Assembly (NCBI GenBank): GCA_902626605.1
Contig: CACOFZ010000001.1
Location: forward strand, 99,501 to 163,500
From: an uncultured PS1 clade bacterium
Lineage (GTDB): Bacteria > Pseudomonadota > Alphaproteobacteria > MED-G09
DNA: 64,000 nucleotides
Reading direction: 5' to 3'
The notes under the pieces were generated by a model. The model had not been told where the DNA came from. It searched no databases and saw only the letters and a list, made by a program, of their open reading frames with translations. The first letter of the stretch is position 1. Each line of letters starts with the position of its first letter. Position numbers and translations under genes: made by a program. Positions 9,761-57,195 of the stretch are shown here, piece after piece.

Positions 9761-12700
9761 ATGGCGACTATTAATCACAGTTCTGGTGCGGACATCATCG
9801 TACCTTCTAATAATGGAACCACGTACAGAGGTTTAGGTGGGGATGATACATATATTCTATCAAACTCAATCGAAGCTAATGCAGCAATTACAATTGTTGA
9901 TACAAGTGGTGCTAATAAAATTCAGTTAGTAAACGGTTTATCTGTTTCTTCAACTAAATTTGCAGCAGACGCTGTGCAACTAACATTGAGTAATGGTGCT
10001 GTTGTAACGATTAATGGTGCAAGTAATTTTACTTTTGATTTAGGTGGTAATGCAACTGCAGGAACAACTGGTTCAGTAAGTTCTTTTGCTGACTTTGCTG
10101 CTGGAGCTGGTGTTGCTTCACTTCCAACTTCTGGATCTGTGGCTGGTGCTTCTGATGTATCAGTTCAAGGTACTGCATGGTCAAGTGGTGGTGGCGCTTC
10201 TTATACTGTAACAAAATCTGCTACTAGTGTAACAGAAGGTAATGCTGCCGTATTTACAATTACATCTAGTGTCGCTGTAACTGCTGACACTTCTTTCTCC
10301 TGGACTGTAATTGGTGATGACAATGGTGGTACTGTCGATAAAGCTGGAACAACTGATGTTGATCTTTTATCCGGTACAGCAACAATAGCCGCTGGCTCAA
10401 CTTCAACAACCTTCTCTGTAACTCCAACAACTGACTCAACCGTTGAGGGTATTGAAGGTATGAAAATTAGTGTTTTTGACTCTAATTCAAATTCAATTTC
10501 TAGCGATATAATTCTTATTAATAACGATGGTTCATCAGCTACCACAGCTGCATTCACACTTACAACCGGTGTTGATACATTTACAGGTAGAAGTGGTAAT
10601 GACTCTTTTGATGGAACTACAGCTGATAGTCTAAATGACTATGATGTTCTAGATGGTGGTGCTGGTACAGATACATTAACTGTTAAAAGTGCATCAGCAG
10701 CTGGTGGATTAACTCTAATTCCTCAATTATCTAATATAGAAGTTATCCAAGCCACTAATAGCATCGCAGATGATACTATCGCAGATGATGATACATTAAC
10801 TATCGCTCTTGCTGGTATTTCAGGTATTACTTCATTAGCTAACATAGCTGGTGGTGATGGTGTTACTTTTAATGACCTAGCAAACCCAGTTGATTTAACA
10901 GTTAAATCAGCTCCAAATATAACTACAGTTAATTATGCAGCAACAGCTTTAACAGGAGCTGCAGACTCAATGACTTTGACACTTTCTGGTACAAACTCAA
11001 CCACTGTAGCTATTACAGACGATAGCACTTCAACATCAAGTGCTCTTGAATCTTTAACTATTAATAGTATTTCTGTTGCAAATACTCTTGCAGATCTTCA
11101 AATAGACGGTGTTCTAACTCCGACATTAACTGTAACTGGTGGTTCAGCATTAACAATCACTGCTGCTTTAGACTCAAATGTTACAACAGTTGATGCTTCT
11201 GCGAATACTGGTGGTCTTACATTAACTAATGCTCCTGGTGCTACAAATGTAACAATTACTGGTAGTGCTGCTGCGGATACATTAACCGCTGTAGCTACTG
11301 GTAAAAATACACTTTCAATGGGTGGTGGTAATGATACTGCTGACTTTGATGGAACATGGGCTGGAACCGATACATATGATGGTGGTGATGGAACAGATAC
11401 CTTAAGATTAGATGGTAACTATACGAATGCTGGTGCTTCATCCACTGTTTTTGGTGGATTAAGTAATGTTGAAGTTGTTGCGATCGACACTGCACATTCA
11501 TTAACGCTTGAATCAAATATTTCAGCAACTACTATTGATGTGCAACATGACTCTGCTCAAACAATCAATCTTAATGACGGTTATACAAATGCAACAACAG
11601 TTAAAATTGGATCAGATGCTGCATCTACAGATGTAATTAACAATAATGCAAATGTTCAACTTACTGTTCAAGCTAATAATGGTTCATTTGGAACTGATGT
11701 TGATATTACAGGTAGTACAGGTACTAGCGATGTATTAAATATCGTGAATACTGCAACTGGTACAACAACTTTTGATACCAACAATGATGTTTTCGAAACT
11801 ATTAATTTAGTAGCATTCGGTGCAACTGCTGCTCCAACAATTGTTACCGGAGCTTACTCTATTGGAACTCCTGCTGGAACAGGTGTTTTAACAATTAACG
11901 CTGATACACTAACAGCTCTTAATGTTGTTACTATTACAGGTACAAGCGCTGCAACACCTCTTGATGTTAAAACAGGTGCTGCTAGTGATATTGTTACACT
12001 TGGTACAAAAAACGATACACTAACATCTGGTGCTGGTAATGATATTATCGATGCTAATGCTGGTGTTAACACAATTGATTCAGGTGCTGGTAACGATACT
12101 ATTACTCTAGGTACTGGTGCTGATAACATTACAGCAGGTGACGGTAATGATATTATTACTGCAGAATCAAGCCTTGCTAATACTGATATAATTGATGGTG
12201 GAGCAGGAACCGATACCCTTACAACAACTGCCGGTATTTCTAATTCATCAGTTATGGGCGGTGTAAGTAATATTGAAATAATTAATCCAATTGGTGCTAT
12301 TAACATTACTGCTGATGGTGATATGGGTGGTGCTACATCATTTAAAATTGATTCAGCATCTGCTCAAATTCTAACACTTGGTGGTACAGGTAAAACATGG
12401 ACCGCAGATACAACAGTCACAGTTACTGATGTTGGTGCTACTAATAATAAAGCAATTATCAACTCAGCAAATGTTGGTTTAACTGTTAAAGGTAATACAA
12501 CTGACGTTGTTGACGGCTTTACAATTACAGGTGGTTCAGGAACTGATACTCTTGAGCTTACTGCTGATGGTGCTACAACTGCAGATCTTGATGACGTTAC
12601 TAAAGTAGAGAAAGTTATCATTAAAGACTCTACTTCTGCTGGTACAGATGCAAAACTTACTGTTAACGAAAGTATTACAACTGCTACTGAGTCACTTCTC

Positions 12701-15700
12701 ACTATTGATGCTACCGAACTTGATGGTTCAACCTCAGCTGATGAAGTATTCACTCTAATTGGTGATGGTTCACAGATTCCACTAAGCGTAACTTCTGGTG
12801 GTGGTGCTGATATTCTTGATGGTGGTACTGCTAATGATACTATTTTAGGTGGTGAAGGAGCTGATACAATTGACGGTAATGAAGGCTTGGATAGTATGTC
12901 GGGTGGTGCAGGTAATGATACCTTTACTCTTAATGCTAAGACTGAGTATTCAACAGCGACTGGTACTGACATCATTGATGGTGGTGCTGGTAACGATACT
13001 GTTACATTTACAGGTGCTCAAAATCTTACCGCAGCTCAACTTTCTACAATTTCTAATACTGAAAATTGGACAATTCCAGAAGGTAGTGACTTTACAATAA
13101 GTGATACCGTACTTGCCAATAACCCAGGACTTGCATTTAATTTTAGTGGTGCTGGTACTTTGTCAAGTGGAGAGGATACTGCAGGTGCTTCATTAATGTC
13201 TACGGCCATTAATGTTAAATCTACTGCTGCTGGTAATCTTAAATTAGTTGGTTCATCAGCAGATGATTCATTTACTTTCCAAGCTACTGAAAGTTTAACC
13301 GCTGATGATACTATTGATGGTAATGCTGGTACTGATATCATCTATCTTCAAAATGATGATGATGCGAATACTGTTGGTGATGCAACAACTGGTGCCATTG
13401 GTGCAAATGTAACTAATGTTGAAAAGATTGTAGTTACTGACCTTGCTGTAGATCAAAATGCTGGTGATGTTACTGTTACTATTGCTTCTGGTTTCTTAGG
13501 AGCAGCAATTACAGTTGATGGTTCAGCTCTAGATGCTAATGTTACAACATTGACAAATGGTGAATTACTGACTGTTACAAATAGTGATAATACTAAATTA
13601 ACAGCTATCGGTGGTGGATTTGGTGACAGTCTGACAGGTGGTTCAGGTACTGACTCATTAACTGGTAACGGTGGTAATGATACACTAATAGGTGCTGCAG
13701 GTAATGATACTATTGAAGGTGGCGCTGGTATTGACAGTATTACAGGTGGAGCTGGAGTTGATCATATTACTGCTGGTGATGGTAATGATATTATCATCGT
13801 TGCAGATGATGCTCACTTCAAAGTTACTGCTGGTGTTGAAACAGTTGATGGTGGTGCTGGTACAGACACATTATCATTTACAGAGGCGGCTGATCTAACT
13901 CTTACCGCTCCTGAGCTTTCTAAATTGATTGGTATTGAAAAAATTGCCCTTGCAAGTAACACTACAAGTCTTACTTTTGGTAATGAGACATTTACTAGTC
14001 TTGGCCAAGCTACTTTAACAATTACAAGTACAACTACTGATAATGTAACAACTATTGACGGTTCTGCTGTATCTAATGGTGCGTTCTTAATTATCGACGA
14101 TGGTAGTAATAACAATTCCGATAGTTTCACTGGTGGTTCTGGTGATGATACTTTCAGATTTGATGGTACAACTAACTTAGTAGATGGTGATACTGTTGCT
14201 GGTGGTGCTGGTACTGATACTATCCAACTTGAAAATGATGCTGCTGTAACTGGTGTTCTAGATTTCAATGAAATTACTGGAATTGAAAAAGTTGTTATAT
14301 ACACAGCTGACGGAGTTACAAGTGGTGCTGCTGATATCCAAATCAAGCCTCATAGTACTACAGCTTTAAATACTGGAACTATGACAATTGATTTATCTGC
14401 TAAAACTGTTGGATCTGCGACATTCAATGTTAATAATTCAGTTGATACAGTAGATATTGACTTTACTATTACCGGTGGTACGGCTTCTGACCAACTTATT
14501 GGATCAAAAGGTGATGATACTATTACAGGTGGTGGTACTACTACAGGTGACACTTTAACAGGTGGTTCTGGTAAAGACTCAATTACTGGTAATTCTGGTG
14601 CTGACACTATAAGTGGTGGTGCTGGTAATGATATCTTGAATGGTGGTGCAGGTAATGACATTGTTAATGGTGGAGCCGGAAATGATGTTATTGGTGGTGG
14701 TGACGGAACTGACACCCTTGAAGGTGATGCAGGTGCCGATAATCTTACTGGTGGTGCTGGTAATGATATCTTTAAGTATGACACTATTGCAGACTCATCT
14801 GGTAACACCAAAGATACGATCACAGACTTTACGCAATCAACACTAAATGCTACTACAGGCGCGCAAGTTACTAATGGTGACTCAATCAGCCTAATAGTTT
14901 CATCTGGTAATGTTGCAGATGGAAATACAACATCCTTTATCCTAGCTGATAAAGGTGACGTGTCTAATGCTGGTGAAGCAGTTAATGCAATGAATAATTC
15001 AAGTGGTAGTTTCGTTTTTGCCAAAGATAACGATGTTCTTTACATCGACATGGATGGTGACTCAACTCTTAACTCTGATGACTATGCATTCACTCTTACA
15101 GGTCTAGATAGTTTCCATGGTGCTGATATTGACGTTACTGTATCTGGTGACGACGATGCTGCTACTACAATTACAACCCTGGATGGTAATGACATAATTA
15201 CTACTGGTTCAGCTAATGATACCATTACTTCTGGTGCTGGTGCTGATATTATCGTAGCTGGTGCTGGTGCTAATACTATTACATCTGGCGCAGGTGCTGA
15301 TAGCATTACTTCAGGTGCAGGTGCTGATATTATTGATGCTGGTGCTGGTAACGATACAATCGTTTCAAGCACAGGTGTTGATGTTCTTACAGGTGGTACA
15401 GGAGATGATACTTTCTTAGCTCTTGGTGTTGTTACAGCTAACAGAACAGAAATCAATGATTTCGAAGATGCTGGTTCGACTGTAGGTGACGTTGTTCATC
15501 TTGAGAATACAGCTTCAGAGTTTGCGGGTAATGATAATGTTGCTCCAGTGTTGAAAACTCTGGAAGTAACAGCTGTTGGTAATGGTATTACCTTTAATAT
15601 TGGGGCTGCTAACGATAGTGATGGTATTAATATTGATACTGCTGCCATCGATATCGTTGAGCTTACAGGTATTAGAACTGGTGATGGTAACCTTGCTACT

Positions 15701-15949
15701 GACTTTGCAGCAGGAACGGGTGTAGAATTACTTAAAACTCTATCATCTGGAGCTACTGCGGCAAGTATTACATCCGATGGTGCTGATGATGATTACTATT
15801 TGATTGCTTATGATACAAATGTAACTGTTATCTACCATGTTGATGGAACAACTAATCCAAACGTTGCAGCTGACTTAATACCGGTTGTTATGTTTGATCA
15901 GACTATTACTGACGGTGCATTTGTTGCAGCTGACTTCTTAATGGTCTAA
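9761..15949 (+). CDS. Giant RTX calcium-binding, S-layer-like type I secreted protein
   Basis: A 2062-residue secreted protein with no N-terminal signal peptide, as expected for type I secretion. The N-terminal 130 residues form an unrecognised domain with one GLGGDDTYIL motif. Residues about 145-260 look Calx-beta-like (SVTEGNAAVFTI ... SSDIILINND). GGxGxDxxx nonapeptide blocks recur near residues 750-797, 1011-1053, 1286-1346, 1603-1670 and 1806-1880, separated by long Thr/Ala/Asn-rich beta stretches. A serralysin-like motif (GNDIFKYDTIADSS ... DTITDF) follows the fourth block. The C-terminus ends in hydrophobic ADFLMV, typical of a type I signal. I noticed no cysteine. GGGAGA lies about 8 nt before ATG. 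RTX, Thr/Ala/Gly bias, size and linked T1SS and glycan genes fit an S-layer protein; a giant adhesin is the main alternative. Confidence 0.85.
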   Translation: MATINHSSGADIIVPSNNGTTYRGLGGDDTYILSNSIEANAAITIVDTSGANKIQLVNGLSVSSTKFAADAVQLTLSNGAVVTINGASNFTFDLGGNATAGTTGSVSSFADFAAGAGVASLPTSGSVAGASDVSVQGTAWSSGGGASYTVTKSATSVTEGNAAVFTITSSVAVTADTSFSWTVIGDDNGGTVDKAGTTDVDLLSGTATIAAGSTSTTFSVTPTTDSTVEGIEGMKISVFDSNSNSISSDIILINNDGSSATTAAFTLTTGVDTFTGRSGNDSFDGTTADSLNDYDVLDGGAGTDTLTVKSASAAGGLTLIPQLSNIEVIQATNSIADDTIADDDTLTIALAGISGITSLANIAGGDGVTFNDLANPVDLTVKSAPNITTVNYAATALTGAADSMTLTLSGTNSTTVAITDDSTSTSSALESLTINSISVANTLADLQIDGVLTPTLTVTGGSALTITAALDSNVTTVDASANTGGLTLTNAPGATNVTITGSAAADTLTAVATGKNTLSMGGGNDTADFDGTWAGTDTYDGGDGTDTLRLDGNYTNAGASSTVFGGLSNVEVVAIDTAHSLTLESNISATTIDVQHDSAQTINLNDGYTNATTVKIGSDAASTDVINNNANVQLTVQANNGSFGTDVDITGSTGTSDVLNIVNTATGTTTFDTNNDVFETINLVAFGATAAPTIVTGAYSIGTPAGTGVLTINADTLTALNVVTITGTSAATPLDVKTGAASDIVTLGTKNDTLTSGAGNDIIDANAGVNTIDSGAGNDTITLGTGADNITAGDGNDIITAESSLANTDIIDGGAGTDTLTTTAGISNSSVMGGVSNIEIINPIGAINITADGDMGGATSFKIDSASAQILTLGGTGKTWTADTTVTVTDVGATNNKAIINSANVGLTVKGNTTDVVDGFTITGGSGTDTLELTADGATTADLDDVTKVEKVIIKDSTSAGTDAKLTVNESITTATESLLTIDATELDGSTSADEVFTLIGDGSQIPLSVTSGGGADILDGGTANDTILGGEGADTIDGNEGLDSMSGGAGNDTFTLNAKTEYSTATGTDIIDGGAGNDTVTFTGAQNLTAAQLSTISNTENWTIPEGSDFTISDTVLANNPGLAFNFSGAGTLSSGEDTAGASLMSTAINVKSTAAGNLKLVGSSADDSFTFQATESLTADDTIDGNAGTDIIYLQNDDDANTVGDATTGAIGANVTNVEKIVVTDLAVDQNAGDVTVTIASGFLGAAITVDGSALDANVTTLTNGELLTVTNSDNTKLTAIGGGFGDSLTGGSGTDSLTGNGGNDTLIGAAGNDTIEGGAGIDSITGGAGVDHITAGDGNDIIIVADDAHFKVTAGVETVDGGAGTDTLSFTEAADLTLTAPELSKLIGIEKIALASNTTSLTFGNETFTSLGQATLTITSTTTDNVTTIDGSAVSNGAFLIIDDGSNNNSDSFTGGSGDDTFRFDGTTNLVDGDTVAGGAGTDTIQLENDAAVTGVLDFNEITGIEKVVIYTADGVTSGAADIQIKPHSTTALNTGTMTIDLSAKTVGSATFNVNNSVDTVDIDFTITGGTASDQLIGSKGDDTITGGGTTTGDTLTGGSGKDSITGNSGADTISGGAGNDILNGGAGNDIVNGGAGNDVIGGGDGTDTLEGDAGADNLTGGAGNDIFKYDTIADSSGNTKDTITDFTQSTLNATTGAQVTNGDSISLIVSSGNVADGNTTSFILADKGDVSNAGEAVNAMNNSSGSFVFAKDNDVLYIDMDGDSTLNSDDYAFTLTGLDSFHGADIDVTVSGDDDAATTITTLDGNDIITTGSANDTITSGAGADIIVAGAGANTITSGAGADSITSGAGADIIDAGAGNDTIVSSTGVDVLTGGTGDDTFLALGVVTANRTEINDFEDAGSTVGDVVHLENTASEFAGNDNVAPVLKTLEVTAVGNGITFNIGAANDSDGINIDTAAIDIVELTGIRTGDGNLATDFAAGTGVELLKTLSSGATAASITSDGADDDYYLIAYDTNVTVIYHVDGTTNPNVAADLIPVVMFDQTITDGAFVAADFLMV

Positions 15950-49829: not shown

Positions 49830-50408
49830 ATGTCAAAAGATCAAGCCAAAGAAAAAAATAAACTGAGATTATTGTGGAAAGAGAGAAGAAAAAATATTTC
49901 TCTTAACTTTTATGATAAATATGAAAAAAATTTTATAAAAAATTTCAAAAAAGCTGTCGGTAGTTTTAGAAATAAAATAATTGCTGGTTATAATCCTATA
50001 AATCACGAAGCAAATTGTTTAAATTTACTAAATTTTGCATCAAATGAAGGATCAAAAATAGCACTTCCTTATACAAATAAAAATAAAATATTAGAATTTA
50101 GAGAGTGGTATTTTAATGAACCATTAACAAAAGATAAATATGGTATTTTATCTCCGTCGTCAAAAAAAATTGTTATACCTGATGTTATAATAATTCCGTT
50201 GTTATGTTTTGACTTAAATGGTACTAGACTTGGCATGGGTCTAGGTATTTATGATAGAAGTCTTCCATTTTATGAATTAAGTGATAAATATGGTCTGGCT
50301 TTTTCCGGTCAGGAGACAAAAAATCTTATTAAAGAAGAACATGATTTCTTGATTGATGGTGTAATTACAGAAAAGAACTTTTTAAGTTTTGAAAGGAAGA
50401 AGAATTGA
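49830..50408 (+). CDS. 5-formyltetrahydrofolate cyclo-ligase
   Basis: About 192 residues from ATG 49830 (MSKDQAKEKNKLRLLWKERR). An in-frame TTG at 49791 would overlap zapA and add 13 residues, and neither start has a strong ribosome binding site. The ATP- and folate-binding motifs are LRLLWKERRKN, IIAGYNPINHEANCLNLL, EGSKIALPYTNK, and RLGMGLGIYDRSL (the family's GxGxGYYDR-type motif). It converts 5-formyl-THF to 5,10-methenyl-THF. The stop overlaps the YmdB-like start by 4 nt. Confidence 0.9.
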   Translation: MSKDQAKEKNKLRLLWKERRKNISLNFYDKYEKNFIKNFKKAVGSFRNKIIAGYNPINHEANCLNLLNFASNEGSKIALPYTNKNKILEFREWYFNEPLTKDKYGILSPSSKKIVIPDVIIIPLLCFDLNGTRLGMGLGIYDRSLPFYELSDKYGLAFSGQETKNLIKEEHDFLIDGVITEKNFLSFERKKN

Positions 50409-51211
50409 GAATATTATTTTTAGGCGATATTGTTGGCAGATCAGCAAGAGAAACTGTTATAAAAAAAATGCCTGATATAAGAAGAGATTATTTCCTAGAT
50501 TTTGTAATTGTAAATGGTGAAAATGCTGCTGGTGGATTTGGAATAACCGAAGATATTTGTGAAAAACTTTTTTCTTCAGGAGTTGATTGCATTACAACTG
50601 GAAATCATGTTTGGGATCAGAGAGAACTTTTAAAATATATTGATAATGAAAATAGATTATTACGACCTGTAAACTTTCCAGTTGATACACCTGGTAAAGG
50701 TTTGAATATTTTCCATAATCAATTTGGTCGTATCCTTGTTGTAAATGTTATGGGAAGGCTCTTTATGGAGTCATTAGACGATCCTTTCTCAGCAATAGAA
50801 AAAGTATTATCTGAGAATCATTTAGGTGTAAATTGCGAGGCTATAATCATTGATATTCATGCTGAAACTACTTCAGAAAAAACTGCAATGGGGCATTTTT
50901 GTGATGGAAAAGTAAGCCTGGTTGTAGGAACTCATACTCATATACCTACTGCTGATTATCAAATTTTACCTTACGGAACTGCTTATCAAACCGACGCAGG
51001 AATGTGTGGTGATTATGACTCTGTTATAGGTATGGAAAAGACTGAACCTATAAGAAGATTTGTTGAAAAAACACCTGGGGGTAGATTTAATCCAGCTCAA
51101 GGTGACCCAACCCTTTGTGGTGTAATTATTGAAACTTCAAGTGATGGGTTGAGTGAATCAATTGAACCGTTTAGAATTGGAGGTATTCTGTCTCAAACAA
51201 AGAAACAATAA
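50405..51211 (+). CDS. TIGR00282 family metallophosphoesterase (YmdB-like)
   Basis: A 268-residue calcineurin-like phosphoesterase. Di-metal motifs are LFLGDIVGRSARE (Asp), VIVNGENAAGGFGIT (Asn, Glu), TTGNHVWDQRE (GNH), IIIDIHAETTSEKTAMGHF and VVGTHTHIPTAD (HxH). YmdB of Bacillus has 2',3'-cyclic-nucleotide phosphodiesterase activity; the alphaproteobacterial role is not established. The start is TTG at 50405, overlapping the stop of the cyclo-ligase gene. Confidence 0.9.
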   Translation: MRILFLGDIVGRSARETVIKKMPDIRRDYFLDFVIVNGENAAGGFGITEDICEKLFSSGVDCITTGNHVWDQRELLKYIDNENRLLRPVNFPVDTPGKGLNIFHNQFGRILVVNVMGRLFMESLDDPFSAIEKVLSENHLGVNCEAIIIDIHAETTSEKTAMGHFCDGKVSLVVGTHTHIPTADYQILPYGTAYQTDAGMCGDYDSVIGMEKTEPIRRFVEKTPGGRFNPAQGDPTLCGVIIETSSDGLSESIEPFRIGGILSQTKKQ

Positions 51212-51244: not shown

Positions 51245-51988
51245 ATGGCAGGACATTCCAAGTTTAAAAACATACAATTTCGAAAAGGCGCTCAAGATAA
51301 AAAGAGAGCTAAAATTTTTGCGAAAATTTCCAAAGAAATTACTGTTGCAGCTAAGCTTGGTTTACCCGATCCAAGTGCAAACCCAAGATTACGCTCTGCA
51401 ATTGCTCTTGGTAAAGCTCAAAATATGCCAAAGGATAATATAGAAAGGGCTATAAAAAAGAGCTACGATGAGAATGGTGAGAATTATGAATCTGTTCGTT
51501 ACGAAGGTTTTGGAATTGAAGGGGTTGGGATAATAGTAGAAACACTTACAGATAATAGAAATAGAACTGCTGGAGATATTAGATCAGTTTTTTCTAAACA
51601 TGGTGGTAATTTAGGTGAGACCGGCTCAGTTAGTTTTATGTTTAATCATTTAGGTATAGTAAAATTTCCAAAATCCGCAGGAAATTTTGATGATATTTTC
51701 GAGATCGCTACTGATGCAGGTGCTCTTGACTGTGATTTAATAGATGATGAATATGAGATAGCTTGTTCAACTGACGAATTGCATCAAGTCACGGAAAATA
51801 TCGAAAATACTCTTAGTTGCGATATTACATCTCAGCTGACTTGGAAACCATCAAATCAAATACCTTTAAATAAAGAAAAAGCTCTAAAAATAATAGAAAT
51901 GATTGAAGTATTAGAGGATCATGACGATGTACAAGAAGTTTTTGCCAATTTTGATTTACCTGAAGAGGTTTTAAATGAATTACAGTAA
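51245..51988 (+). CDS. YebC/PmpR family protein
   Basis: A 247-residue member of the YebC family. It has AGHSKFKNIQFRKGAQDKKR, KISKEITVAAKLG, NPRLRSAIALGKAQNMPKDN, YESVRYEGFGIEGVGIIVE and TDNRNRTAGDIRSVFSKHGG. These proteins act as transcriptional regulators or, as shown for some YebC-type proteins, translation factors at proline stretches. In related genomes ruvC follows yebC; here a nuclease of another family does. Confidence 0.94.
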   Translation: MAGHSKFKNIQFRKGAQDKKRAKIFAKISKEITVAAKLGLPDPSANPRLRSAIALGKAQNMPKDNIERAIKKSYDENGENYESVRYEGFGIEGVGIIVETLTDNRNRTAGDIRSVFSKHGGNLGETGSVSFMFNHLGIVKFPKSAGNFDDIFEIATDAGALDCDLIDDEYEIACSTDELHQVTENIENTLSCDITSQLTWKPSNQIPLNKEKALKIIEMIEVLEDHDDVQEVFANFDLPEEVLNELQ

Positions 51989-52002
51989 GAAGATTTTTTA
52001 AA

Positions 52003-52509
52003 ATGCCTTCACCTCAAAAAGTAAAGGGAAAGTCATTTGAAAATGCAAAAGCAAAATTTTTAACAGAAATTTATGGTGAAAAATTTATAAGAGTTCCAAC
52101 ATCTGGTGCCTTTTTAGGTGGACAAAATTATGACAGAAGGCATACAATGTCTCAAGGTCAGGTTATGGCCTTTAAAGGCGATATAATACCTCCTGATGAT
52201 TGGATTTATTTCAATTGTGAATGTAAATTCTATAAAGATTTTAAATTTCATTTATTATTCAATAAGTCAAAAGTATTGGATGGTTGGATTGATGAAACAT
52301 TATCAACTGCTAACGAGAACGACCTTAATATTATTTTTATGAAATTTAACAATATTGGTGAGTATGTTGCTTATCAAAGGAGCGAAAAATTCAAAGTTAA
52401 AAATTTTATCTCATATTCAAAGGGATGGAATTTTACTTCTCATGAATGTTTTTGGAATGATTATAATATTAGTAAAATAAGAGATAGGTCCAAGGGAATT
52501 AATCTTTAA
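52003..52509 (+). CDS. PD-(D/E)XK nuclease-like protein in the ruvC position
   Basis: A 168-residue protein. KGKSFENAKAKFLTEIYG (helix with a conserved Glu), IRVPTSGAFLGGQNYD, then FKGDIIPPDD and FNCECKFYKDF give the GD...ExK layout of a PD-(D/E)XK active site (Glu near 25, Asp near 64, Glu-Cys-Lys near 78-80). The motif order and the PTSGA segment recall phage-encoded Holliday-junction-resolvase-like nucleases. It is 14 nt after yebC and 25 nt before tilS. In many alphaproteobacteria ruvC-ruvA-ruvB and tol-pal genes occupy this interval, so it may replace RuvC. Substrate is not proven by sequence. Confidence 0.65.
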   Translation: MPSPQKVKGKSFENAKAKFLTEIYGEKFIRVPTSGAFLGGQNYDRRHTMSQGQVMAFKGDIIPPDDWIYFNCECKFYKDFKFHLLFNKSKVLDGWIDETLSTANENDLNIIFMKFNNIGEYVAYQRSEKFKVKNFISYSKGWNFTSHECFWNDYNISKIRDRSKGINL

Positions 52510-52534
52510 AAAAATATAACTTTAAAATAACGTT

Positions 52535-53821
52535 ATGAAAAATAAAAAATCAATGAAAGATTTACCAGAGGTAAAACTTTTTAATAAATACATCGATGAT
52601 AAACCTATTGCTCTTGCTGTTTCAGGTGGTCCTGACTCTACTGCAATGATGCAAATAGCAGCTCTTTCAAAAAAATTAAAAAATAACAACGTTACAGTTA
52701 TTGTTGTTGATCATGGTCTTAGAGAAGAGTCAAAAAATGAAGCAAATATAGTTGGTCAAAATGCAAAATTACTTGGCTTTAAGTTTAAAATTCTTAAATG
52801 GGATGGTGTTAAACCAAAAACTCGTATTCAAGAAATAGCAAGAAAAACAAGATATAAATTAATGACCTCTTGGTGCAAAAAAAAAGGAATTGAAAAACTT
52901 TTCTTGGCGCACCATCTCGATGATCAAGTTGAAACTTTTTTAATGCGTCTTGGTAAGGGCTCTGGTGTTGATGGTCTTGCTGTTATGAATTATGTTACAG
53001 AAATATCTTCGCTTAAATTGGTGAGGCCTTTTTTAGAAATACCCAAGACCAGATTTATAAAAATACTGAGTATCACGAATCTTGAATGGATTTCGGACCC
53101 AAGTAATTTTAACTCAGATTATAAAAGGTCAAGGATTAGAAAAATTTTACCAATTTTATCTAAAGAAGGAATTAATTCAAAACAAATTGGCTTAGTAATA
53201 AAAAGGATGCGATCCGCAAAAGATGCTTTAAATACTCAAACTAATATTCTGCTAAAAAAATACTTATCAAATGTAGATAATGTGGCATATTTTTTGAATA
53301 AAGAATTATTGAAAGATGTAAAAGAAAAAGAGATATTACTCAGAGTTTTAGAAAAAATTTTTATGAATATTTCTGGATCTATTTATCCTCCAAGGAGAAA
53401 TAAACTTGAAAATATTATATCTTGGATTTTAAAAAATAATAATATTAAAGCCAAAACTTTAACTGGTGTGGTTGTTAGAAAAAGAAAAAGTGAACTAATT
53501 TTTTATAGAGAACCAGATGATTGTTATAAATCGGTTAATATTAGACCTCTGACTTCAAGGTACAGCTGTTGGGATGATAGGTTTTTTTTAAAAGCAAATA
53601 AATCTAATGATCTACAAATAAGAGCTCTTGGTGATGTTGGCATTAAGATATTAAAAGAAGAAAAGATACTAAAAAGACAAGGTTTTCAAAATGTTCCATT
53701 ATCAGCATGGAAAACAGTTCCAGGAGTTTGGTCAAAAAAAAGACTTATTTCAGTGCCAACTTTAGGTTATTGTAAACAAAAAGATTTAAAAATTTATATA
53801 AAATCGAATAAAAATATATAA
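52535..53821 (+). CDS. tilS: tRNA(Ile)-lysidine synthase
   Basis: A 428-residue N-type ATP pyrophosphatase. It has IALAVSGGPDSTAMM (PP-loop SGGPDS, about 25-30), VVDHGLREESKNEAN, LFLAHHLDDQVETFLMRLGKGSG and WISDPSNFNSDYKRSRIRK. The C-terminal half carries the weaker TilS C domain (LPLSAWKTVPGVWSKKRLISVPTLGY-like end). It modifies C34 of tRNA-Ile2 to lysidine and is essential in bacteria with that tRNA. It lies upstream of ftsH, a conserved order. Confidence 0.93.
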   Translation: MKNKKSMKDLPEVKLFNKYIDDKPIALAVSGGPDSTAMMQIAALSKKLKNNNVTVIVVDHGLREESKNEANIVGQNAKLLGFKFKILKWDGVKPKTRIQEIARKTRYKLMTSWCKKKGIEKLFLAHHLDDQVETFLMRLGKGSGVDGLAVMNYVTEISSLKLVRPFLEIPKTRFIKILSITNLEWISDPSNFNSDYKRSRIRKILPILSKEGINSKQIGLVIKRMRSAKDALNTQTNILLKKYLSNVDNVAYFLNKELLKDVKEKEILLRVLEKIFMNISGSIYPPRRNKLENIISWILKNNNIKAKTLTGVVVRKRKSELIFYREPDDCYKSVNIRPLTSRYSCWDDRFFLKANKSNDLQIRALGDVGIKILKEEKILKRQGFQNVPLSAWKTVPGVWSKKRLISVPTLGYCKQKDLKIYIKSNKNI

Positions 53822-53897: not shown

Positions 53898-55817
53898 GTG
53901 AATAACGGAAATTTAAGAAACTTTATTGTTTGGGTCATATTAGCATTTTCTTTATTAGGTTTATATAACTTAATTGATAATCCTATTGTTTCAAAGAATC
54001 AGTCAGAGATAACCTTTTCTCAACTTTTAGCTGAAGTCGATGCTGGAAATGTTGTAGATGTTGAGATTTCTGGCGATAATATTTCTGGTCATTATTCTGA
54101 TGGAAGATCTTTTAAAACATTTGCTCCTTCTGATCCATCTTTAATCGATAGGTTGTACAATAGGGGAGTATCAATATCAGCTAAACCAGAAAAAGAAGGT
54201 GGCTCAATTTTTCTAAATATACTTATCTCATGGTTCCCAATGTTATTATTAATTGCTGTATGGATCTTTTTCATGCGTCAAATGCAAGGGGGTGGCGGTA
54301 AAGCTATGGGCTTTGGTAAGTCAAAAGCTAAACTTCTAAATGAAAAAAGCGGTAAAGTTACATTTGAAGATGTTGCTGGTGTTGATGAAGCAAAAGATGA
54401 CTTACAAGAGATAGTTGAATTTCTAAAGGATCCGTCAAAATTTCAAAGATTAGGCGGTCGTATCCCAAAGGGAGCCTTATTGGTAGGACCTCCAGGTACA
54501 GGTAAAACATTACTTGCAAGAGCTATTGCTGGTGAGGCAAATGTTCCATTTTTTACTATTTCCGGTTCTGATTTTGTAGAAATGTTTGTAGGTGTAGGCG
54601 CTAGTCGTGTAAGGGATATGTTTGAACAGGCAAAAAAGAATGCTCCCTGTATAATTTTTATAGATGAAATTGATGCTGTAGGAAGATCTCGAGGAGCTGG
54701 TTTAGGTGGTGGAAATGATGAAAGAGAACAAACTCTTAATCAGCTTTTGGTTGAAATGGATGGATTTGAAACAAATGAGGGAATTATTTTGATAGCTGCT
54801 ACTAATAGACCAGATGTTCTTGACCCTGCTTTATTAAGACCAGGAAGGTTTGATAGGCAAGTCGTGGTTCCAAATCCAGATATAATAGGAAGAGAAAAAA
54901 TATTAAAAGTTCACGTCCGAAAAGTTCCAATATCTTCAGATGTTGATATCAGAGCGATAGCCAGAGGTACACCAGGATTTTCCGGAGCTGATCTCGCCAA
55001 TATTGTTAATGAAGCGGCATTACTTGCTGCAAGAAGAGGCTTAAAATTAGTTTCTAATGCAGAGTTTGAGGATTCAAAAGATAAAGTTATGATGGGTCCA
55101 GAGAGAAGATCTATGGTTATGACTGAGGAGGAAAGAACTCTAACTGCATATCATGAAGCTGGTCATGCATTGGTTTCTTTGAATTATTCTTCTTCTGATC
55201 CAATTCATAAGGCAACTATTATACCTAGAGGACGCGCTTTAGGTATGGTAATGCGGCTACCTGAAAGAGATCAAATTTCTATTACTAGAGAAAAAATGTT
55301 TGCTAATCTTGCTGTAGCAATGGGCGGAAGAATTGCTGAAGAAGAAGTATTCGGTTATGATAAAGTCACTTCAGGTGCGTCATCTGATATTAAGCAAGCA
55401 ACTGACTTGGCAAGAGCCATGGTTATGCAATACGGAATGTCTGAAAAATTAGGTTTTTTATCCTATGGCGATAATGAAGAAGAGGTTTTTCTTGGAAGAT
55501 CTGTTGCTAGAACTCAGAGTATGTCTGAAGAAACACAAAAACAAGTTGACTCAGAAGTTAAAGTAATAGTTGATACGTCGTATAAAAATGCTGAAAAAAT
55601 AATAAAAGATAAAAGAAAAGATTTAGATATTATTGCCAGAGGATTACTTGATTATGAAACACTTACTGGTAATGAAATAATCAATCTTTTAAAAGGTATT
55701 GATCCAACAAGGGAAAATCCATCAGATGATGATAAAGGTTCAAAAACGTTATCGGGATCTGTTCCGAAAACAGGAGGAAAAGCTCAAAAATCAGAACCAG
55801 GTCTTCAAGGTACTTAA
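53898..55817 (+). CDS. ftsH: ATP-dependent zinc metalloprotease FtsH
   Basis: A 639-residue membrane AAA protease. Two membrane helices (about 9-26 and 107-125) flank a periplasmic domain. The AAA module has [20 protein letters not shown] (Walker A), [15 protein letters not shown] (Walker B) and the SRH with [19 protein letters not shown]. The protease site is [11 protein letters not shown] (HExGH), with the third ligand in [16 protein letters not shown]. The start is GTG at 53898 with AAGAAGG upstream. It degrades misfolded membrane and regulatory proteins, including LpxC in related bacteria. Confidence 0.97.
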
Positions 55818-55839: not shown

Positions 55840-57195
55840 TTGAATAAAAAACTCTTTGGTACCGATGGTATTCGTGGAACAGTAAATGAATCATATTTAA
55901 CTGCTGACACCGCATTAAAATTAGGGATTGCTGCCGGAAAAGTATTTACAAGAGGTCCGCATATTCATCGTGTTGTTATAGGAAAAGATACTAGAGTATC
56001 TGGATATATGCTTGAAACAGCTCTAACATCAGGTTTTACATCTGTAGGAATGGATGTTTTCCTATTTGGTCCAATCCCAACACCTGCAGTTGCTTTTTTA
56101 ACTCAAGCGTTAAGAGCTGATATTGGTGTAATGATAACAGCATCCCATAATACTTATGAGGATAATGGTTTTAAATTATTTGGACCAGATGGTTACAAAC
56201 TATCAGATGAAAAAGAACTTGAAATAGAAAACTTAATGCTATCAGAGGATTTGTTAAATTTTCCTCGTTCAGAATATATCGGCAGAGCCAAGAGAATAGA
56301 TGATGCTCAAGCTAGGTATATTGAATATGCTAAAAGATCCTTTCCAAAAGATAAAACTCTTGAAAATATTAAAATTGTTCTTGATTGCGCTAACGGTGCA
56401 TCTTATAAAGTCGCCCCCGAAACATTTTGGGAACTTGGAGCACAAGTGACAGTTATTGGTAATCAACCAAACGGAAAGAATATTAATCTTAACTGTGGTT
56501 CTACAAATACTGATTTATTAAAAAAAACAGTTATTGAGAAAAGTGCAGATATTGGTATAGCACTTGATGGTGATGCTGATAGAATGATTGTTGTCGATGA
56601 AAAAGGAAAAGAAGTTGACGGCAATCTTTTGTTTGCTTCAATTATAAAGAATTTGAGTGATAGAGATATGATTGGGAATAAATCTGTTGCTTCAACAATT
56701 ATGGCAAACTTTGCACTAGAAAAATATTTATCAAGTATCGGAATTAATCTCATCCGAACAAATGTTGGCGATAGGCATTTAGTAAAAAGCATGAGGGAAA
56801 ATGATCTACTAATAGGCGGTGAACCTTCCGGTCATATTGTAATGAGAAATTTTGGTACAACAGGTGACGGATTGATTGCTTCTCTTCAAGTTTTATCTAT
56901 GATGACCTATGAGGATAAACCAATTAGTGAACTTACGGATTTATTTGAACCTTATCCTCAAAAGAATATATCAGTATCAATAAAGAATAAAAATCCTCTT
57001 AATGACCCAATCGTAAAAAAAGTAATTAAAGAACAAGAATTATCCTTAGCTAACAATGGAAGAATTATTGTTAGAGAGAGTGGAACAGAGCCAATTATAA
57101 GGGTTATGGTTGAGTCAAAAAAGAAAGCATTGATAAATGATATTTGTGAAATAATTGTTTCCACTATAGAAAAATCTGTAAATACAAATAACTAA
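55840..57195 (+). CDS. glmM: Phosphoglucosamine mutase
   Basis: A 451-residue phosphohexomutase giving glucosamine-1-phosphate for UDP-GlcNAc. It has KLFGTDGIRGTVNE, IGKDTRVSGYMLE, VMITASHNTYEDNGFKLFGP (phosphoserine loop), GIALDGDADRMIVVDEKG (metal site), GGEPSGHIVM and VRESGTEPIIRVMVES (phosphate-binding). The start is TTG at 55840, with GGGGGA upstream. It follows ftsH by 22 nt. Confidence 0.97.
   Translation: MNKKLFGTDGIRGTVNESYLTADTALKLGIAAGKVFTRGPHIHRVVIGKDTRVSGYMLETALTSGFTSVGMDVFLFGPIPTPAVAFLTQALRADIGVMITASHNTYEDNGFKLFGPDGYKLSDEKELEIENLMLSEDLLNFPRSEYIGRAKRIDDAQARYIEYAKRSFPKDKTLENIKIVLDCANGASYKVAPETFWELGAQVTVIGNQPNGKNINLNCGSTNTDLLKKTVIEKSADIGIALDGDADRMIVVDEKGKEVDGNLLFASIIKNLSDRDMIGNKSVASTIMANFALEKYLSSIGINLIRTNVGDRHLVKSMRENDLLIGGEPSGHIVMRNFGTTGDGLIASLQVLSMMTYEDKPISELTDLFEPYPQKNISVSIKNKNPLNDPIVKKVIKEQELSLANNGRIIVRESGTEPIIRVMVESKKKALINDICEIIVSTIEKSVNTNN

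Follow-up and report, generated by a model that had tools for sequence, protein, structure and literature searches.

What does a phage-like nuclease do in a bacterial chromosome at the position where ruvCAB usually lies, and has it taken over the resolution of Holliday junctions? The question is raised by positions 51989-52534 of the window (the whole 64,000-nucleotide stretch that was analysed), which consist of one nuclease gene and the intergenic gaps on both sides of it. The host is a marine alphaproteobacterium of the PS1/OCS116 clade (genome 1.29 Mb, assembly 93% complete).

A nuclease gene between yebC and tilS

An earlier note on this DNA had described a 168-residue nuclease with a GD...ECK motif after yebC, followed by tilS-ftsH-glmM. 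We recovered this arrangement: the open reading frame at 52003-52509 belongs to PDDEXK_15, and E13, G59-D60 and E73-C-K75 are present. The features of the locus are as follows.

50405-51211, + strand: metallophosphoesterase gene (TIGR00282-type), conserved left neighbour, which adjoins yebC in locus L130 too
51245-51988, + strand: yebC, conserved left neighbour, which precedes ruvC in other alphaproteobacteria
51989-52002, + strand: gap of 14 nt between yebC and the nuclease gene (13-15 nt in 11 of 11 sequences compared); co-directional, operon-like
52003-52509, + strand: PD-(D/E)XK nuclease of 168 aa (PDDEXK_15 / phrog_244), an ORF with ATG start in the ruvCAB slot; proposed Holliday junction resolvase
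52039-52041, + strand: Glu13 codon, motif I (helix 1); invariant in 48 sequences and aligned with Glu10 of the Thermus phage Hjc
52180-52182, + strand: Asp60 codon, motif II (GD, G59-D60); invariant in 48 sequences
52219-52227, + strand: Glu73-Cys74-Lys75 codons, motif III (E-x-K); E73 and K75 invariant in 48 sequences
52535-53821, + strand: tilS, conserved right neighbour, starting 25 nt after the nuclease gene
53898-55817, + strand: ftsH
55840-57195, + strand: glmM, followed by a serC-like gene

Upstream of the locus lie the TIGR00282-type phosphoesterase gene, a 5-FCL-type gene, zapA and a divergent transketolase gene. Neighbouring genes were named by sequence recognition, and profile tests were applied to the nuclease and YbgC. 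Two side observations concern the surroundings. The contigs of L012, L015, L016 and L021 start 1.7-2.5 kb upstream of the nuclease gene, with the break in or near zapA or the 5-FCL gene, and a 2062-aa ORF at window positions 9761-15949 is by far the longest in the window.

The nuclease gene occupies the ruvCAB slot

We compared the gene order of this interval across families. In four unrelated alphaproteobacterial families (L128-L131) the order is yebC-ruvC-ruvA-ruvB-ybgC-tol genes-tilS-ftsH, which bears out the earlier statement that ruvCAB and tol genes are the usual content between yebC and tilS. In the PS1 family, 11 genomes have this interval assembled, and in each of them the nuclease gene comes directly after yebC. 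Two sister genera (L018; L019 and L021) show the order yebC-nuclease-ybgC-tilS. The best NCBIfam match of the gene between the nuclease gene and tilS in these three loci is TIGR02799, the tol-pal-associated thioesterase YbgC (E=4e-37 to 1e-40), with scores slightly below the strict cut-off of TIGR02799 and above that of the YbgC/FadM subfamily. Since ybgC, the first gene of tol-pal, is kept in the sister genera, the nuclease gene occupies exactly the ruvCAB slot, and the loss of tolQRAB-pal was a deletion of its own, on the right-hand side of ybgC. The genus of the window has no ybgC in the interval either. The earlier wording "in place of ruvC" was thus right about the position and too narrow about the loss, because the whole ruvCAB block has gone from the lineage.

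Seven family genomes (G001, G005, G007, G010, G012, G013 and G016) have no nuclease gene. They are not counter-examples, since yebC is missing from all of them too, and in addition five also lack ftsH, while the remaining two have contigs that break off within ybgC or where tilS begins. The entire locus is missing from G010 (95% complete, 8 contigs). Outside the family, the nuclease gave no match in the 98 further relatives that were sampled, and among 385 alphaproteobacteria the only match beyond the PS1 family was a single partial one below the cut-off. Beyond the Alphaproteobacteria the search covered 14 control genomes and one narrow scan, with no nuclease match in the 14, and no plasmid carries a relative of the nuclease.

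RuvABC and TolB are absent from the PS1/OCS116 family

We then examined whole genomes by profile search, using the window's genome and 17 family relatives, most of them metagenome-assembled or single-cell genomes that are 55-97% complete. RuvC was found in 0 of these 18 genomes and in 92 of 98 other alphaproteobacteria sampled, and RuvA in 0 of 18 and in 21 of 23 others. The RuvB search gave only weak matches in the 18 (about E=1e-6), against E<=4.1e-70 in 21 of 23 other genomes; the family matches were rejected because these ORFs look like other AAA+ ATPases. For TolB_N the counts were 0 of 18 and 13 of 13 others. Of the genes that the earlier note had described as absent from the interval, ruvA, ruvB, ruvC and tolB are gone from this genome and its 17 relatives, and no normal ruvC lies elsewhere in the genome or the family. 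As a further observation, the tol-pal operon is apparently lost in the family, judging from TolB, although two genera still have ybgC, the first gene of the operon.

Among other junction-processing proteins, RusA is absent from all 18 family genomes, whereas RecG and RuvX/YqgF were each found in 11 of the 13 family genomes sampled, which indicates that the search method works on such assemblies. RuvX also occurs in RuvC-bearing genomes. The wider check for resolvases that the earlier note called for came out ambiguous on one point, the presence of RuvX/YqgF. Separately, a 0.6 Mb single-contig alphaproteobacterial relative (G034) has a RuvC match (C1:545986-546423) with no RuvA and no true RuvB, possibly a case of RuvC without its motor.

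The nuclease belongs to a phage family linked to recombination genes

The nuclease matched Pfam PF24608 (PDDEXK_15) in the Pfam scan with E=2.7e-22 and 79.9 bits (cut-off 27), and PHROG phrog_244 with E=1.3e-13. The PDDEXK_15 cut-off was exceeded in 11 of 11 PS1-family members, in all of which E13, D60, E73 and K75 are kept. Across 48 sequences, K8, G9, E13, R30, S34, G35, D60, E73 and K75 are among the invariant residues. The phrog_244 label reads phage putative PDDEXK endonuclease, "RusA-like Holliday junction resolvase"; this is an annotation, and RusA itself is another family. The profiles of RuvC (PF02075), RusA (PF05866) and Hjc (PF01870) did not match the nuclease in the Pfam scan, nor did that of RecU (PF03838) in the full scan at E<=10. 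NCBIfam, PADLOC and phmmer against the PDB gave no match. Profile searches of the PDB also brought up AcrIIC5, YadA and uridylate kinase, which we discounted as chance matches.

The other PDDEXK_15 carriers examined are phages, whereas the PS1 copy sits in a chromosomal housekeeping locus in 11 genomes. The closest annotated relatives come from jumbo phages (Salicola SCTP-2, 46% identity; the Pseudomonas PA5oct group, 45%; Sinorhizobium Phosso, 41%). IMG/VR was scanned with patterns seeded with phage sequences, one of which matched at least 544 contig stretches; patterns from PS1 sequences alone were too narrow and gave 0 matches. The nearest marine phage contigs showed 51-59% identity over most or the N-terminal part of the protein, and the maximum of 59% was reached over the N-terminal 126 residues. 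All 11 PS1 sequences grouped as a single clade (100/100) in a maximum-likelihood tree, inside a larger clade (97/96) with marine phage sequences around them. This nesting, with the root placed on a very long outgroup branch, suggests transfer from phage to bacterium, in agreement with the phage origin proposed earlier. The simplest reading is one ancient capture from a phage followed by vertical inheritance in the family.

In the phages, the gene lies beside a gp46/gp47 (SbcC/SbcD-like) recombination nuclease in 30 of 32 long non-redundant loci, usually together with a baseplate hub gene and gp55; PA5oct, Phosso and Atu_ph07 are annotated examples. In an SPO1-like phage the relative sits between primase and DNA polymerase. 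In Phosso, a ribonuclease HI gene was also observed about 1 kb from the nuclease gene on the opposite strand (L134:4600-4986, L134:6001-6525).

Sequence profiles, motifs and fold hint at Hjc-type resolvases

Hjc_15-6, from a Thermus phage, has been shown experimentally to cut X-shaped DNA, and its proposed catalytic residues are E10, D40, E53 and K55 (PMC8805305). The order of motifs KG-x3-E ... RVP-SGA-GG ... D ... E-x-K is common to the nuclease, Hjc_15-6 of Tth15-6 (PDB 7BGS/7BNX) and the archaeal and viral Hjc proteins. In hhalign, the nuclease aligned with a profile of Thermus phage and rudivirus Hjc at 84% probability (E=7.7e-6, in one pairwise test), with the catalytic residues in register; the sequence match to 7BGS alone was not significant (E=0.17). 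The AlphaFold2 model of the nuclease (pLDDT 84.6, pTM 0.82) has low confidence in the SGA-GG loop, which corresponds to residues 30-37 of Hjc_15-6, the segment that was not seen in its crystals (PMC8805305). The best Foldseek matches of the model in the PDB were to Archaeoglobus fulgidus Hjc; these matches were weak, with E=0.011 at best and TM of 0.26-0.46 among the Hjc entries. Viral-library matches to the nuclease include proteins named Holliday junction resolvase.

The nuclease differs from Hjc (PF01870) in a longer loop between motifs I and II and in its C-terminal half, and it was not filed as Hjc because it has no Pfam Hjc match. In the papers searched, neither an activity for any PDDEXK_15 protein nor the name of the family came up. 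The profile alignment, the motif order and the fold matches all lean the same way, weakly, towards Hjc-type Holliday junction resolvases, and four-way junction resolution is our best guess at the function of the nuclease.

A phage-derived resolvase probably replaced ruvCAB in place

We consider it probable that the nuclease is a phage-derived, structure-selective Holliday junction resolvase, captured once by the PS1/OCS116 ancestor, which replaced ruvCAB in place. The earlier proposal of a domesticated phage resolvase standing in for RuvC is supported: no RuvC lies elsewhere in the genome or the family, the nuclease groups with a recombination-linked phage family, and the tree favours a phage origin. 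It is also probable, though somewhat less so, that the family gave up the whole RuvABC system and works with one stand-alone phage resolvase in the old ruvCAB position, RecG being the only known branch-migration motor. Since the loss of ruv and the gain of the nuclease fall on one branch, they count statistically as a single event.

In the mechanism that we propose, the nuclease would act as a dimer with a PD-(D/E)XK site made up of E13, D60, E73 and K75 with Mg2+. The mobile RVP-SGA-GG loop, together with the basic N-terminal region, may bind four-way junctions made by RecA, and two opposing strands of the junction would then be nicked. As there is no RuvAB motor to load or position the nuclease, it would recognise the shape of the junction directly, as phage and archaeal resolvases do, and branch migration would fall to the retained RecG. 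After the separate deletion of tolQRAB-pal, ybgC would have stayed behind in two genera, with nothing kept in the genus of the window.

The serious rival to this reading is RuvX. RuvX/YqgF, or RecG together with fork-restart routes, might resolve the junctions, with the nuclease doing another DNA job such as trimming branches or flaps, unrelated to the loss of ruvCAB. RuvX is retained in most of the family genomes sampled, many PD-(D/E)XK enzymes are not resolvases, and for genomes with neither RuvC nor RecU, YqgF or prophage proteins have been suggested as the resolvases (PMC1193525). However, RuvX co-occurs with RuvC in genomes, which argues against a simple equivalence of the two (PMC1193525), and a nuclease with an unrelated job fits poorly with the exact ruvCAB slot, the Hjc motif layout and the origin in phage recombination gene clusters. 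We therefore regard this explanation as unlikely.

A role in restriction or anti-phage defence is far less likely still. PD-(D/E)XK folds are common among restriction enzymes, but PADLOC gave no match, no methylase or defence gene adjoins the nuclease gene, and the gene is strictly conserved rather than patchy. The nuclease groups with the recombination-linked phage family and not with a restriction or defence family, the grouping that would have spoken against the original proposal.

The nearest relatives of the nuclease are phage proteins, and it could on that ground be taken for a relic of a prophage or mobile element, or a passenger, with no housekeeping role. The selection and synteny data contradict this. 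The dN/dS of the nuclease against its relatives was 0.03-0.09, with larger distances saturated at synonymous sites. Protein identity to the sister genera was 74-77% for the nuclease, compared with 68-70% for YebC, 37-49% for TilS and 84% for FtsH. Synteny is fixed in three genera with the short gap to yebC, no phage gene adjoins, and a single origin was followed by inheritance within the family. Low dN/dS, conserved identity and invariant catalytic residues indicate that the nuclease is evidently a working housekeeping gene under strong purifying selection, and a relic is hardly credible.

Finally, we give practically no weight to the idea that ruvABC are only apparently absent, hidden by the incompleteness of most family genomes or by extreme divergence, since three separate protein families gave 0 of 18 by a method that found RecG and RuvX, and 11 assemblies span the usual ruv position with no ruv gene in it. 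Multiplying (1 - completeness) across all 18 genomes gives 5e-16, a rough estimate in which gaps are taken to be independent. Incomplete assemblies thus cannot explain the absence.

Comparison with known systems

A free-living marine clade without RuvA, RuvB and RuvC means that the resolvasome is dispensable outside symbionts. RuvAB ranks among the most widespread of all bacterial recombination proteins: of 117 genomes surveyed in 2005, Wigglesworthia and Aquifex were the only RecA-bearing ones that lacked it (PMC1193525). The open-access papers searched contained no description of a free-living clade without RuvABC and with a phage nuclease in the slot. The PS1 clade makes it possible to ask, in a natural setting, if resolution depends on a branch-migration motor; if our reading is true, an in-place switch took place from motor-coupled to motor-free resolution. 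The chromosomal position also provides an in-place hint to the function of a very common, uncharacterised phage family.

Two elements of this picture are already known, namely the enzyme family from phages and the replacement of RuvC by RecU in Firmicutes. The phage proteins of PDDEXK_15 / phrog_244 have the same length and motifs as the PS1 nuclease (those of PA5oct and SCTP-2 at the 45-46% identity given above), but the PS1 nuclease is a fixed chromosomal gene of a bacterial family, in place of ruvCAB. RecU is a nuclease of the PD-(D/E)XK type, and RusA, a resolvase of phage origin, is able to substitute for RuvC in E. coli; RusA (PF05866) belongs to a different family from the PS1 nuclease. 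In the RecU-bearing Firmicutes, RuvC has likewise been replaced by an analogous resolvase (PMC1193525), although these bacteria keep RuvAB, whereas the PS1 family is without RuvAB too. RuvC (PF02075) itself shares with the PS1 nuclease the chromosomal position and probably the reaction, on an unrelated RNase H-like fold.
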